DNA from: Pseudomonadota bacterium
GTDB taxonomy: Bacteria > Pseudomonadota > Gammaproteobacteria > Burkholderiales > Burkholderiaceae_C
Assembly: GCA_021845505.1 (NCBI GenBank)
Contig: JAJZVU010000034.1
Coordinates: 1 to 36,228, forward strand
Length of the DNA: 36,228 nt
Direction: 5' to 3'
The notes under the pieces were generated by a model, which saw only the letters and a list, made by a program, of their open reading frames with translations, ran no database searches and was not told where the DNA came from. Made by a program: the position numbers and the translations under genes. How positions within the stretch are numbered: position 1 is the stretch's first letter; every line of letters starts with the position of its first letter. Shown here piece by piece: positions 16,744 through 24,555 of this stretch.

Positions 16744-16829
<86 letters not shown>

Positions 16830-16840
16830 CGACTTGCGGG

Positions 16841-16863
16841 AGCCGGCCATGGGCCGGCTTTTT
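16841..16863 (+). terminator. Rho-independent terminator after tRNA-Pro
   Basis: AGCCGGCC (16841-16848) and GGCCGGCT (16852-16859) form a perfect eight-pair stem with an ATG loop, followed by a run of T. It ends the tRNA transcript 20 bases past the CCA. A near-identical hairpin stands at the same place after attR. Confidence 0.85.
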
Positions 16864-16877
16864 CGTGGGCGGGGTTT

Positions 16878-16903
16878 GTTGCCAATCTGTTGCCAATTGG
16901 CGC
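16878..16903 (+). repeat. Left copy of a 26-base internal repeat (candidate integrase arm site)
   Basis: GTTGCCAATCTGTTGCC continues as AATTGGCGC, and the whole 26 bases match 24047-24072 at 23 positions in the same orientation. The copies sit just inside the two ends of the element, where tyrosine integrases of this kind bind with their N-terminal arm domain. The role is inferred from position. The remaining stretch up to the relaxase stop at 17002 holds nothing else recognisable. Confidence 0.55.
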
Positions 16904-18738: not shown

Positions 18739-19181
18739 AAGGCCGTCTCGCTGACAGGCAGCCTTTCGATGCTGAAGCGGCGGCCTCGATGCCACGGCAG
18801 CGACAACGTAGCCCACGCACATGGACGACAACGTCGCGGGGTAGGGCATGTGGTGGTGCAAGAGGAGAGCCAACACCCACCAGCCACGGCAGCCGTGCCA
18901 CGACAGCACGTGCCCCCACAACGGCACGCGCAGCAGCAACCTCCAGCGCCATGCACCCTTCGCAGGCCGCTGTCGCGGCGTGCGAAGGAAAACATTTGCC
19001 AGGAGTCAACGGTTCCCCCCACCTCGCGCCGAGAACCACGGTCCTTTGCGCACGCGGCGCCGGACGAGCTCTCGTCATGGGGCGCAACCATGCCGTGGTG
19101 GACAGACACGAGGGATCTTCGGGGGGGCGTTCAAGGCACCAAACGCGCCATCGGTGGTGCCTCGCGATCCGAATTGGCCAT

Positions 19182-19290
19182 GAACAATGGCCCATTTCCC
19201 GAGAAATGGCCACGAACAATGGCCCATTCCAATCAATGGGCCAAAGAAATGGGCCATTTCCCGAAAATGGCCTTGAACAATGGCCTATTT
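19182..19290. repeat. Cluster of direct and inverted repeats built on ATGGCC
   Basis: A sequence beginning CATTTCCCGA and ending GAACAATGGCCCATT at 19193-19228 recurs with few changes at 19255-19289, 62 bases on. A further GAACAATGGCCCATTT stands at 19182. Between the copies is a perfect inverted repeat TGGCCCATT/AATGGGCCA (19220-19228, 19235-19243), and CATTTC/GAAATG forms a second small hairpin inside copy one. The arrangement resembles iterons or a multi-site operator. Its role (replication, transfer control or segregation) cannot be told from sequence. Confidence 0.6.
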
Positions 19291-19617
19291 CTCGACGTTG
19301 GCAGATTGGCGTCACCCATGTGGCGCAAACCGCTAGAAGGCTTCGGCAGGCGAGCAGGCAGCAGGAGCCTCAACCAGGCAGCGCAATGACCTGTTGTGCT
19401 CCGCGCACGTACCCATTGCATCCAGGCGCAACGGTTGTCGCCACTGACTACCGTCCTGCGGTTGTCGGTGCAACCTCTCGCCAACGCCAGCCATGGACCA
19501 GATGCCCTTGTCGAGCCAAGGACTGGAGGTCGGCCTGACCGGACTCTCACCCGATTCCGCCTAGGGGCCGGTCACGACCCGTTGCAGTCGGTCGCACACA
19601 TTCCGGAAAACGGTCAC

Positions 19618-19940
19618 TCAACGCTCCAGCGCCAATGCATCCAGCGGGTTCACGCCCAGCACCTCGCGGTACAAGAACAGCAAGGCGCTGAGCGCCTGAT
19701 TGTGCGTGGAGGCCGACACATCGCGTTCAATCGCCAGCATAGTGAGGAAAGCCTCCACCTCGGCCTCGCCCATCTCACGCGGACGCCGCACGGCCCGCCC
19801 CGACCTTGCCAGCGAATAAAAAGGCGCACACAATACATATAAGCCTTCTCGGCGCAGGAGCTATAGAGCACGTACCAAATGCGCTTGCGAAGCTAATCGA
19901 GAAAGCGAACCGAGTGCAGCACGGGCATGCCGGGTTTCAT
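19618..19940 (-). pseudogene. intI: Integron integrase intI, decayed N-terminal remnant
   Basis: Read from the ATG at 19940 the protein begins MKPGMPVLHSVRFLD, meets a TAG at 19895-19893, continues [12 protein letters not shown] and [18 protein letters not shown], then shifts frame across about 11 extra bases near 19789-19799. It resumes as [20 protein letters not shown] and [20 protein letters not shown] before a stop at 19618. These pieces follow the N-terminal core-binding domain of IntI1-like integron integrases in order. Only about 105 of the usual 320-340 codons remain; the catalytic domain with its Arg, His and Tyr residues is gone. The gene is therefore dead three times over. Its orientation, divergent from the cassettes, is the standard integron layout. 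Confidence 0.88.
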
Positions 19941-20081
19941 GGCTCATTTATGCTTGTTTTTTTGCACAGTCCATTCCTCCGGAACCCACTGTGCAAGCCA
20001 CTTCGCAGCGCAAGATCTTGCCAGAATATCGCGCGGCCGTCGGTTTATTTTGCGGAGTTTGCGGACTACCTTACGTTAGGC
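19941..20081 (+). other. attI recombination site region
   Basis: Right next to the intI start codon lies TTCATGGCTCATTTATGCTT followed by GTTTTTTTGCACAGTCCAT, which closely resembles, from memory, the class 1 integron 5' conserved segment around its intI1 start. The region ends in the core site GTTAGGC at 20075-20081, with cleavage expected after G20075. An inverted repeat TTGCACAGT/ACTGTGCAA (19962-19970, 19988-19996) lies inside it. No RYYYAAC partner is found upstream, so it is a simple attI-type site and not an attC. A cassette promoter is expected here or in the intI remnant, but I see no convincing one. Confidence 0.72.
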
Positions 20082-20087
20082 AGCAAG

Positions 20088-20945
20088 ATGGACGAGCAGA
20101 TGCAAGACTTCTTGATTAATTCCCTGGGCATATTTTGCAGCGCAGAAATGCAGACTCTTATTGCCAAAGTGCGCGAAATCGCTGGATGCGAACTCCCCGC
20201 CGAAAAAAAGACGCCCTTCTTAGCTTTTCATAAGTTCATAACGGAACCACAGCCAAACTTCATCTCTACGCTTCGCGCTGATCCAAAGAAGGAGCATTGG
20301 TATCACGCCTTGGTAAACGGTATTCTTGGCAATGTTCAAGGCTCCTTTAGTTGCCTGCTTTATCACCAAGAACGTCTGGCGCAAACAGAGCGCGCGTTAA
20401 TGGTTGCGCTTCACGCCCACGACATAAAAGGGCTTCCCGCAAATGGAACGCTTGGTCTGGGAGGCACATCGGTGCTTGACTTTGAGTATCAAGCATATGT
20501 ACTCGCGTTCCGTAGGTGTCTCGACCAGTTGGCATGCGCTTTAGCAGCATTTTTCAAGAACAAATACAGCTCTTTCCGAACACTACCCAACTTCCTCAGC
20601 CACCGAAAGCCAAAAGAGGTTGCCAGCAAGCTTGCTGAAGTCCATGCGACGCACATAAGCAACTTCGAGTTCGTCCTGTCGGAAGGTGGCGTTACATCGG
20701 TACGGGACCGAATCGCTCACTACGAATTTGTCCAAGCGGGATGCTTCAACTTGAGCACGAGAGGCGTTGTCTTGGTAGGGGGCGGCGAAAATTTGAATTT
20801 GGCAGGAGGCGTTTCTGAAACGCTTACAGGCACCCTTCAGAGAAAATCGAACAGCCTTCATCAATGCATTTCTGAAATGATAGATGTATTTGTGCAAGAG
20901 GTGGCAATGTGGGAGGCAGATGTCTCGCAAAGAGCCAGCGAATGA
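20088..20945 (+). CDS. Cassette 1 protein of unknown function with HEPN-like RX4H motif
   Basis: A 285-residue protein I do not recognise. It is largely alpha-helical by composition, without signal peptide or transmembrane helix. Near the C-terminus SVRDRIAHYEF contains R206-x4-H211, the motif of HEPN-type ribonucleases, followed about 45 residues later by a helix (NSLHQCISEMIDVFVQEVAM). The ATG at 20088 is chosen because it lies seven bases after the attI core site, where cassette genes begin; the 94 codons of open frame upstream read across attI and the intI remnant. Codon use is clearly less GC-rich than in the flanks. A stress or phage-defence RNase or toxin is possible; the HEPN assignment rests on the motif and its helical context only. 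Confidence 0.75.
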   Translation: MDEQMQDFLINSLGIFCSAEMQTLIAKVREIAGCELPAEKKTPFLAFHKFITEPQPNFISTLRADPKKEHWYHALVNGILGNVQGSFSCLLYHQERLAQTERALMVALHAHDIKGLPANGTLGLGGTSVLDFEYQAYVLAFRRCLDQLACALAAFFKNKYSSFRTLPNFLSHRKPKEVASKLAEVHATHISNFEFVLSEGGVTSVRDRIAHYEFVQAGCFNLSTRGVVLVGGGENLNLAGGVSETLTGTLQRKSNSLHQCISEMIDVFVQEVAMWEADVSQRASE

Positions 20946-20964
20946 AGCAGCTTCGCGCTTTACT

Positions 20965-21081
20965 GCCTAACTTGTCGTTCAGCGCGAACGCCAACGCAGG
21001 CCATGCCTTCGGCATTTTCATGGCCTGTGTCGGGGCCCTCCGCACTTCGTGCTCCGGCGCCGGTTAACTAGAGCGTTAACC
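20965..21081 (+). repeat. attC1 recombination site of cassette 1
   Basis: R'' is GCCTAAC (20965-20971), followed by TTGTCGTTCAGCG. At the far end stands CGGTTAACTAGAGCGTTAACC with the core site GTTAACC at 21075-21081. Both ends follow the attC consensus (RYYYAAC and GTTRRRY with the typical L boxes). R'' is exactly complementary to the GTTAGGC that opens the same cassette. The 117-base site has long imperfect inverted repeats between the boxes, so it would fold into the single-strand hairpin that integron integrases recognise. Confidence 0.85.
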
Positions 21082-21102
21082 ATTCACTTGAAATCACCCA
21101 CT

Positions 21103-22425
21103 ATGACCGACGCTGACAACGCATTTGAGGAAGAGGAAATCGAAGCTGCGAGACCTCCCGAAGAAATCGCTGCGGCGAAAAGGCTATTAGTGGAGCGATG
21201 TTCGGCGGCAGGCATCACGCTCGAGGAGGTAAATGTTCCAGATGAGGGGCCTCGCCTTCGGGTTGGAATGAAATGCGGCCGCAACACGCGCTGGCTTGGC
21301 CTGTGGTCTGATGACAGCATTGGGCAATTTCTTTCGATTCCGTTCGAGAAATACATCTACCTTGCAGATCTTGAGGCGATATGTTCTTACGTTGATGGAA
21401 CCATAGAGGCCGCAATTCGACCCCTTGCTCCGTCATTCGGACCAGCAAGCTTCGCGTACCGGCGCCTGTTTGGGTTTGATCGCCCAGACGATCAGTTTGA
21501 TGTGGAGTCTGCCAAGATTGCCGTGCCCGCCACACAGGAAGGGTTGCCTCACATCGAGATTAGCCCCGCGTCTGAGGTTTTTACCCGACTATCGAGGTCG
21601 CCAGCCAGGCTGCGCATGACTCTGAAACTTGCTGGTTGTCATGTAACTACGCACGACTCAGCGCTAGCGTTGCTCAATAAAGCTGCGGGATCGGTCCTGT
21701 TCCAACTTGACCTACTTACTGACGTCCCAATGGGTTTGGAGAAAGCGCGCCGCCGCTTTGGCGGTGGGCGATCGCAAAGGAAGCGATCAAACCAAGCTAC
21801 CGAATTGCAGTACCCAAAGACACAGTTCGAAAACGCCCCGCTGTCGCTGTATTGGTACGGCCGAAGCGCGACGGGTATGCCCTTGCTTCAATTTCTCGCT
21901 TTCTACCAAGTCATCGAATTCTACTTTCCGATCTATTCGCAGTCAGCGGCCCAGAGAAAGCTGAAAGCGATACTAAAGGACCCGACATTCCGCGGAGACC
22001 GGGATGCTGACATTGCTAGACTCTTGGGGGCGATTTACGTGAGCCGTAGTGGTGCGTTTGGCGATGAACGCTCACAACTCCGTGCGACACTTGTGGAATG
22101 CTCAGATTCGGAAGCTTTACGCCAATTCCTAGAGGCCGAAGCTGAGCGCAAGGACTTTTTTCTCAACAAGGCGAAGTCGTCCCCGTATCACAAAATTCCT
22201 TTGGCGAACCCCTCCGCCGATCTTAGGAACGATGTGACAGACAGAATCTATGACATCCGTTGCAAGATCGTTCATACAAAGACTGATTCAAGAGACGGGG
22301 ACGTTGAATTGCTGCTGCCCTTTACTCAGGAGGCCGAGCAGCTTTCTTTCGACATAGAGCTCGTCCAGTATCTTGCACAACAGGTACTGGTGGCGGGTAG
22401 TGCTCCGTTTAACGTCCATGGCTAA
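21103..22425 (+). CDS. Cassette 2 protein of unknown function with HEPN-like RX4H motif
   Basis: A 440-residue protein without recognisable family. The first 30 residues are acidic (DNAFEEEEIEAARPPEE), a mixed region with a WLGLWSDDSIGQF stretch follows, then YWYGRSATGMPLLQFLAFYQ (about 265-285). The C-terminal helical part contains DIRCKIVHTK with R386-x4-H391, again the HEPN ribonuclease motif, followed by LLPFTQEAEQLSFDIELVQY. Such a C-terminal arrangement (R-x4-H, short linker, LLP, long helix) is common in HEPN domains of defence proteins. The ATG at 21103 lies 22 bases after the core site of attC1. The stop codon sits inside the R'' box of attC2. It is low in GC compared with the flanks. 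Function unknown. Confidence 0.78.
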   Translation: MTDADNAFEEEEIEAARPPEEIAAAKRLLVERCSAAGITLEEVNVPDEGPRLRVGMKCGRNTRWLGLWSDDSIGQFLSIPFEKYIYLADLEAICSYVDGTIEAAIRPLAPSFGPASFAYRRLFGFDRPDDQFDVESAKIAVPATQEGLPHIEISPASEVFTRLSRSPARLRMTLKLAGCHVTTHDSALALLNKAAGSVLFQLDLLTDVPMGLEKARRRFGGGRSQRKRSNQATELQYPKTQFENAPLSLYWYGRSATGMPLLQFLAFYQVIEFYFPIYSQSAAQRKLKAILKDPTFRGDRDADIARLLGAIYVSRSGAFGDERSQLRATLVECSDSEALRQFLEAEAERKDFFLNKAKSSPYHKIPLANPSADLRNDVTDRIYDIRCKIVHTKTDSRDGDVELLLPFTQEAEQLSFDIELVQYLAQQVLVAGSAPFNVHG

Positions 22426-22486
22426 CCCATCATTCCGCCAGACCTGCGCGAAAAGCCGCGCAGGCCGATGAATTCAGACGTTGGAC
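22420..22486 (+). repeat. attC2 recombination site of cassette 2
   Basis: A compact 67-base attC. R'' is GGCTAAC (22420-22426, overlapping the gene's stop codon). A central stem CCTGCGCG/CGCGCAGG encloses a six-base loop, L' is near GATGAATTCAGAC, and the core site is GTTGGAC (22480-22486). The short size, perfect stem and boxes in the right order leave little doubt. Sequence after it (22487-22618) shows no further cassette gene. Confidence 0.88.
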
Positions 22487-22551
22487 GACAGCGTTTCTCA
22501 AAGCGCAACGGCAGCAACGGGTCGACAGCCGCCTCTGGCGATGGCCAAGTA

Positions 22552-22581
22552 GGCGACGGCACGGGCCGAGGTGCCGTCGCC
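22552..22581. terminator. Strong hairpin downstream of the integrase gene
   Basis: GGCGACGGCAC (22552-22562) pairs perfectly with GTGCCGTCGCC (22571-22581) around an eight-base loop. It lies between attC2 and the end of the integrase gene, 37 bases past the integrase stop, and may end transcripts from either side. There is no T-run. Confidence 0.45.
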
Positions 22582-24183: not shown

Positions 24184-24237
<54 letters not shown>

Positions 24238-24248
24238 GGACTTGCGAG

Positions 24249-24271
24249 AGCCGGCCAGGGGCCGGCTTTTT
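24249..24271 (+). terminator. Displaced copy of the tRNA-Pro terminator
   Basis: AGCCGGCC (24249-24256) and GGCCGGCT (24260-24267) with an AGG loop and a run of T. It differs from the hairpin after the intact tRNA only in the loop and marks where the transcript ended before insertion, or the left end of a second element. Confidence 0.75.
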
Positions 24272-24305
24272 CGTGGGTGGGGGTCGTTGCCGATCGGTTG
24301 CGCCG

Positions 24306-24555
24306 GCATCGGTGCATCGGCGGCATCGTCCGCGACTGCGGCGAGGTCCGATCGGGCTTCGGCCATCCGCCGGTGCTGGTCGTCGCGCGGTTGCGCGACC
24401 TCGCTGGCACGCCGTCCGCTGAGCATGGTCGGCTCGCTGGCATCCTGCCGGTGACCAAGCGCCGGATCGCGGCGATCGCCTGCTCCACGCGCCAGGGCCG
24501 GATGCTCGGCCCGGCCTCGCAGCCGAGGCTTCGTCGGTGGCGCCGGTACGGCGCT
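24306..24555 (-). pseudogene. Relic of a second MobV relaxase gene (3' end)
   Basis: This stretch aligns with the last part of the relaxase gene at 17002-18546. In one frame it reads GPSIRPWRVEQAIAAIRRLV and TGRMPASRP, matching [20 protein letters not shown] and TDRMPSALP; then the match jumps frame to MLSGRRASEVAQPRDDQHRR and MAEARSDLAAVADDAADAP. At least one frameshift and an upstream truncation make it a pseudogene. The 54-bp repeat, terminator and GTTGCC site in front of it repeat the order at the element's left end, so a second, related element once stood here in tandem. Confidence 0.78.

Follow-up and report, generated by a model that had tools for sequence, protein, structure and literature searches.

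The 36,228-nucleotide contig JAJZVU010000034.1 from a Burkholderiaceae_C bacterium (that whole stretch is called the window here) contains an integron with a ruined integrase gene (intI) and two gene cassettes, carried as cargo by a putative integrative mobilizable element at a tRNA-Pro gene. Comparison with related genomes points to a probable history: a chromosomal-type integron was captured in the cargo slot of the element, its intI decayed, and the cassettes are now fixed there as cargo, with HEPN-type defence as their likely role. Two parts of a functional integron are present in the sequence, an attI site adjoining intI and attC-ended cassettes. The third, a working integrase gene, is not: intI contains an in-frame TAG, has shifted frame by 1 nt, and has lost about 687 bp through an internal deletion (coordinates of all features in Table 1).

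The identity of the intI remnant is clear. The piece at 19621-19788(-) matches NCBIfam TIGR02249 (integrase_gron, 1e-14) and Pfam PF13495 (1.7e-14), and its sole match in the Protein Data Bank (PDB) is IntI4 (2a3v, 8.6e-7). The piece at 19791-19892(-) matches PRK15417 (1.1e-4). Both pieces score far below the whole-protein cut-offs of their families, as fragments would. The alternative of an ordinary phage integrase was considered and dropped: NCBIfam and PDB rank IntI first, and the Pfam match is to a generic SAM-like domain. Thus, the intI assignment made in a preliminary description of this DNA, drawn from its letters alone, holds.

Alignment with genome G240, of the same genus, locates the lesions. 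At 19895-19893 the window has an in-frame TAG where G240 has CAG, bearing out the earlier account of a gene in two frames with a stop codon. The frame changes by 1 nt near 19790. The deletion, internal to the gene, removes the equivalent of L090 7826-8512 in G240 and joins roughly model position 82 to the last ten or so codons, which remain together with the stop. (It was placed by blastn against G240; a global alignment misplaced the gap, with the shared end still readable there.) The catalytic half is indeed gone, as first described, with the amendment that the C-terminal end survives. Likewise, the roughly 11 extra bases of the preliminary description are real relative to class 1 IntI but are not a lesion. 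They reflect a loop that is naturally four residues (12 nt) longer, as judged by eye against the L007 protein. Intact 334-residue IntI proteins of G737 and G730 have the same longer loop, which is therefore normal in the genus, leaving the 1-nt frame change near 19790 as the true lesion. A second 1-nt difference from G240, near 19917, is probably a change in G240 rather than in the window, because at that point IntI is encoded in the frame that starts from the window's ATG.

Apart from the missing 687 bp, the window and G240 platforms run in parallel: 19530-19648 is 95% identical, and 19649-20081, which includes the previously noted attI core (its sequence is GTTAGGC), is 84% identical. The intI/attI stretch is matched in seven of 28 genomes of the genus, the source genome included. 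In five family genomes (loci L050-L054), intI matches cover only about the first 83-99 model positions. Four of the five, L052 being the exception, are matched by the attC model described below. Decay may thus repeatedly leave an N-terminal intI stub next to an array.

Both cassettes end in attC sites. These were sought with a covariance model, R1, built from 12 attC sites of relatives (alignment A4) with structure assigned by hand. None of the 12 came from the window, and sites of loci L053 and L059, the closest to the window's own among those available, were kept out of training. Searched against the 36-kb window, R1 recovered both sites where they had first been proposed, attC2 at E 2e-6 and attC1 at E 3e-4; the only other match at E ≤10 was a 15-nt hairpin (13.1 bits, E 0.18). 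At E 0.1 the model matched 117 sites across 33 relative loci; some 11 of these were sites on which it had been trained, and 116 of the 117 lie on a single strand within their locus. The reported agreement between cassette ends and starts also stands: the R'' box of cassette 1 (20965-20971) is the exact complement of the core at 20075-20081 (7/7), and that of cassette 2 (22420-22426) matches the complement of 21075-21081 at 6/7. The reading frames of both cassettes are whole. A search of the source genome that scored 150 of 9325 candidates recovered attC1 only, leaving room for further sites.

Other scans were less informative. A hand-made attC scan (box plus arm pairing) was dropped for the covariance model as uninformative in this GC-rich window: its best score, 41, was no higher than the range of maxima from 60 resampled windows (35-48), attC2 reached 39, and the eight sites listed on the strand of attC1 did not include it. 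Rfam at gathering thresholds matched two tRNAs in the window and nothing else. A promoter and terminator scan was likewise uninformative (two promoter-like matches versus 1.3 expected; four terminator-like versus 3.6).

The preliminary description placed the integron inside a mobilizable element, and its position within a relaxase- and integrase-bearing element is supported. The two att repeats, one at the tRNA-Pro gene, are 93% identical and spaced 7408 bp apart, giving an element of about 7.4 kb with the site-specific integrase and tRNA-borne att repeats of an integrative mobilizable element. Its integrase matches Pfam Arm-DNA-bind_3 (2.9e-20) and Phage_integrase (3.7e-19). The relaxase is MobV-like: it matches NCBIfam MobV at 6.7e-8 (32.9 bits, cut-off 100) and Pfam Mob_Pre at 4.2e-5, also below cut-off. 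Repeats similar by eye to the 31-nt repeats just before the cargo slot occur in L080 and L082. Just past the right att repeat (24300-24509) lie relaxase C-terminal fragments (76% over 129 nt, 90% over 71 nt) that look like the relic of an earlier tandem element.

How did the integron enter the element? A relaxase search of 348 family genomes (E 1e-20) found three: the source genome, G158, and G049. A fourth, G721, was found later by another route. G158, of the same genus, contains the same element (relaxase 90% and integrase 95% identical in amino acids). Homology with the window ends at 19536 and restarts at 22564, and the slot between is filled by about 3970 bp of other genes. Translations read by eye, rather than database matches, suggest a short-chain dehydrogenase, AraC-type regulators, and an acetyltransferase; the best attC model score there is 10.1 bits (E 1). 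G240 contains the integron platform with both flanks, three attC sites, and other cassettes. No relaxase match was found in the 20 kb around it, and neither window cassette protein is matched in it; its own intI is broken by changes other than those of the window. The product of one G240 cassette (L090 10955-11878) resembles Lit, a protease that excludes phages (PADLOC match at 1.5e-11; Pfam Peptidase_U49 slightly above cut-off).

Because the platform and its flanks occur in G240 without a relaxase match nearby, and the element occurs in G158 with unrelated cargo, capture is favoured over construction in place, a choice that the preliminary description had left open.

The remaining relatives bear on the competing history. 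In G721, one 9.8-kb contig carries the relaxase and an intI bearing the window's left flank. This intI keeps its catalytic half, and has lost its first codons and shifted frame. The element integrase is not on this contig, and the attC model has no match there at E 0.01. The contig also encodes a KAP-type NTPase (PADLOC PDC-S49, 2.6e-141) and an HNH protein (mREase_IV, 3.4e-20). Together with a neighbour that has an RNAIVHH motif and no family match, the NTPase and the HNH/type IV-like protein occupy the slot (L097 1241-6180), whose content is probably a defence module. In G049, from another genus, three attC sites and three cassettes unlike those of the window come after the relaxase, with an arm-type integrase beyond them; these are provisionally taken as one element. 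It has no integron integrase above cut-off, and a short intI stub was recognised by eye.

Thus, three elements of this relaxase family have integron parts: those of the window, G721 (relaxase 88% identical in amino acids), and G049 (60-61%). Their lesions differ: a deletion in the window, 5' loss and a frame change in G721, and near-total loss in G049. Both observations would suit an array built inside the element, in which an active integron entered the lineage long ago and swapped cassettes, its copies then decaying separately. This history seems rather unlikely. It has to accommodate the same platform and flanks in G240 without a relaxase match within 20 kb, as well as the integron-free element of G158, and independent captures account for the data equally well.

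The capture model would run as follows. A chromosomal-type integron of the genus, flanks included, would have moved into the cargo slot of a small integrative mobilizable element at tRNA-Pro, one with a MobV-like relaxase and an arm-type integrase. The cassettes presumably were gained through ordinary IntI-mediated exchange while an integrase functioned, because the cassettes on the G240 platform are different ones and an attC array elsewhere includes a close relative of cassette 1. The nonsense codon, frame change, and internal deletion would then have destroyed the integrase and left attI with two cassettes, unable to shuffle in cis and inherited as fixed cargo. The array is indeed frozen in cis, as originally proposed, with no helper found in the strain, because intI is dead and no integron integrase above the family cut-off was found in the source genome (99.48% complete). 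Transfer with the whole element, which the preliminary description took to be the only route left, would be one way for the array to spread. Also counted in favour of this model are genes resembling defence genes at the corresponding places in other genomes: a Lit-like one on the G240 platform and PDC-S49 in the G721 slot.

The flanks might fit another means of entry. The left flank recurs at 95% identity in G240 (19530-19648) and 93% in G721 (19530-19651). On the right, 22479-22572 is 80% identical to L090 12614-12707, and 22441-22521 is 86% identical to L082 10334-10413. In a class 1-like integron (L056), the sequence past the last attC-like site resembles this array end. The two flanks of the window are imperfect inverted copies of one another, matching at 63 of 106 positions, as are those of G240 (77 of 126, the latter without shuffle control), and stretches of the left flank are also found elsewhere in G049, G240, and (30 nt) G032. 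Conceivably, then, the integron unit is a transposable block, bounded by inverted repeats, that moved whole into the slot. This is improbable. The window flank score of 33 exceeds the 95% level of 500 shuffles (27), but at least one shuffle beats it (maximum 44). Moreover, no transposase or target duplication was shown, and a search of the plasmid collection with the 111-nt left flank found nothing at E 1e-5. Capture of the integron is retained as the preferred account, with the flanks as part of what was captured.

What do the cassettes encode? The best guess is that both products, if expressed, are HEPN-like ribonucleases (RNases) and candidates for anti-phage defence. Neither this probable content nor the sister elements with different cargo figured in the preliminary description. 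HEPN RNases have the motif R-x4-6-H. A lone RxxxxH often arises by chance, and what counts as evidence is that it is conserved, as it is in both cassette proteins. For the cassette 2 protein, P0001, R386 and H391 are present in all seven rows of alignment A6 (P0001, five near-full-length relatives, and one partial). For the cassette 1 protein, P0002, R206 and H211 are shared by P0004, P0007, and L044 (as RDLISH), making four of five rows in alignment A7; the fifth falls short of the site.

P0001 resembles a known defence family, matching PADLOC DzbB (1e-10) over its C-terminal part; Pfam MauJ (1.6e-5) is below cut-off. Six relatives come from viral contigs, and two of these adjoin genes that by eye are prophage-repressor-like. 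P0002 has no Pfam or PADLOC family match. Its distant relatives are in a viral contig (47%) and in Pseudoxanthomonas mexicana (38%). A relative with 80-84% identity lies in the cassette array of the metagenome-assembled genome SKS1.bin42, split over the ends of two contigs and taken as one gene. One attC ends just before its start, another lies past its end, and more lie beyond. (R1 was trained on three L043 and four L042 sites, so its matches there are not independent; the boxes are directly readable.) Downstream cassettes of SKS1.bin42 (L042 1879-3199) encode HEPN_AbiU2-like (0.0027, below cut-off) and DUF4145/PD-T7-4-like (1.4e-16/3.2e-9) sequences.

Foldseek searches with structure models of P0001 and P0002 gave no match at E ≤0.001. 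HEPN structures were among the better second-look matches for both, with weak scores. Those scores, the absence of a Pfam or PADLOC family for P0002, and the MauJ name for P0001 would suit unrelated helical proteins that are neither nucleases nor defence factors. Such an identity appears unlikely in view of the invariant RxxxxH of P0001 and its aligned relatives, the DzbB profile match, and the relatives in viral contigs. The HEPN-type reading stays the likeliest for both proteins. Each was found once, in the source genome, among 349 family genomes, and the P0001 profile found only its own genome among 369 genomes of the class. A plasmid search gave no match to P0002 and one distant MauJ for P0001.

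Table 1. Features of the integron and its carrier element in the window.
Feature	Position	Strand	Basis or remark
tRNA-Pro(TGG), integration site	16744..16820	+	ARAGORN; Rfam tRNA 16744-16817
Left att repeat (tRNA-Pro 3' end and beyond)	16776..16893		118-nt direct repeat
MobV-like relaxase, 531 aa	17005..18597	-	MobV, Mob_Pre; relatives in G158, G721, G049
Four 31-nt repeats, AATGGCC..GGCCATT type	19172..19295		just before cargo slot
Left flank of platform	19530..19617		imperfect inverted counterpart of right flank
Cargo slot filled by integron	19537..22563		blastn against L080 (G158)
intI C-terminal end with stop	19618..19648	-	joined to N-terminal part by deletion of about 687 bp; blastn against G240
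intI remnant, N-terminal SAM-like domain, second frame	19649..19788	-	TIGR02249, PF13495 on 19621-19788
intI remnant, first frame, in-frame TAG 19895-19893	19789..19940	-	PRK15417; G240 alignment
attI region, core 20075-20081	19941..20081	+	19649-20081 84% to L090 8513-8945
Gene cassette 1	20076..21075	+	1000 bp; core sites and attC
Cassette 1 protein P0002, 285 aa	20088..20945	+	R206-DRIA-H211; HEPN-like candidate
attC of cassette 1 (attC1)	20965..21081	+	R1 23.6 bits; 84% identical to attC sites of the array in family member L059
Gene cassette 2	21076..22480	+	1405 bp; core sites and attC
Cassette 2 protein P0001, 440 aa	21103..22425	+	R386-CKIV-H391; C-terminal HEPN-like candidate
attC of cassette 2 (attC2)	22420..22486	+	R1 31.8 bits; 88% identical to one L053 attC
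Right flank/array end	22487..22572		common to G240 and, in part, G049
Arm-type tyrosine recombinase, element integrase, 508 aa	22622..24145	-	Pfam domains; 95% aa in G158
Right att repeat	24184..24301		direct repeat of 16776-16893

None of the ingredients of this arrangement is new, and their combination illustrates known principles neatly without adding one. Earlier publications cover both inactivated integrons and defence cassettes; the added interest is that two genera have integron arrays within elements that share this type of relaxase. These elements could provide a concrete route by which cassettes of "sedentary" chromosomal integrons move between strains as a frozen block. A broader proposal, offered tentatively and with some doubt, is that small relaxase/integrase elements of this family, present in two or more genera, possess a slot dedicated to cargo, into which arrays of chromosomal-type integrons and other defence modules are repeatedly taken. 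The elements would then be vehicles that carry sedentary arrays between genomes, with HEPN-type defence genes as common payload. Proof that the element family repeatedly carries chromosomal-type arrays would raise the significance of the present example. Meanwhile, it contributes two candidate families of defence proteins, both with relatives in viral contigs and one, that of cassette 1, also represented in another integron array, so that a link between defence genes of prophages and of integrons can be put to the test.

No publication on this element was noticed in a literature search, though one may exist; several known systems provide comparisons. With two attC sites and no functional IntI nearby, the array fits the definition of a CALIN (cluster of attC sites lacking an integron integrase; at least two attC sites). 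These are about as common as complete integrons in the IntegronFinder 2.0 survey (2961 versus 2760; PMC9024848). The window array differs in keeping attI and a recognisable intI remnant, and in lying in a mobilizable element. A foreign IntI could still use its attC sites in trans, and CALIN are mobilisable in trans according to PMC12444791. The same paper describes Xanthomonas chromosomal integrons in which intI is dead through a stop, frameshift, or deletion while cassettes, some of them for defence, are kept. The window integron is alike in its dead intI and retained cassettes. However, those of Xanthomonas lie downstream of ilvD, with two named exceptions, whereas this one is cargo of a tRNA-Pro element. 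Integron defence cassettes have been published by Darracq 2025, Getz 2025, and Kieffer 2025, as described or cited in PMC12409362 and PMC12444791. The window cassettes share with these the presence of probable anti-phage genes in an integron, here predicted from sequence. P0001 resembles the DzbB and MauJ profiles, and P0002 is without a Pfam or PADLOC match. In comparison with the RNase toxins RnlA and LsoA, neither a sequence family match in the libraries used nor an antitoxin partner was recognised. Finally, SGI1-type mobilizable islands carry a class 1 integron. Like them, the window element would be an island with a tyrosine recombinase that depends on a helper for its transfer and has an integron as cargo; it differs in that no resistance cassette was recognised and the platform resembles the chromosomal integrons of its own genus.

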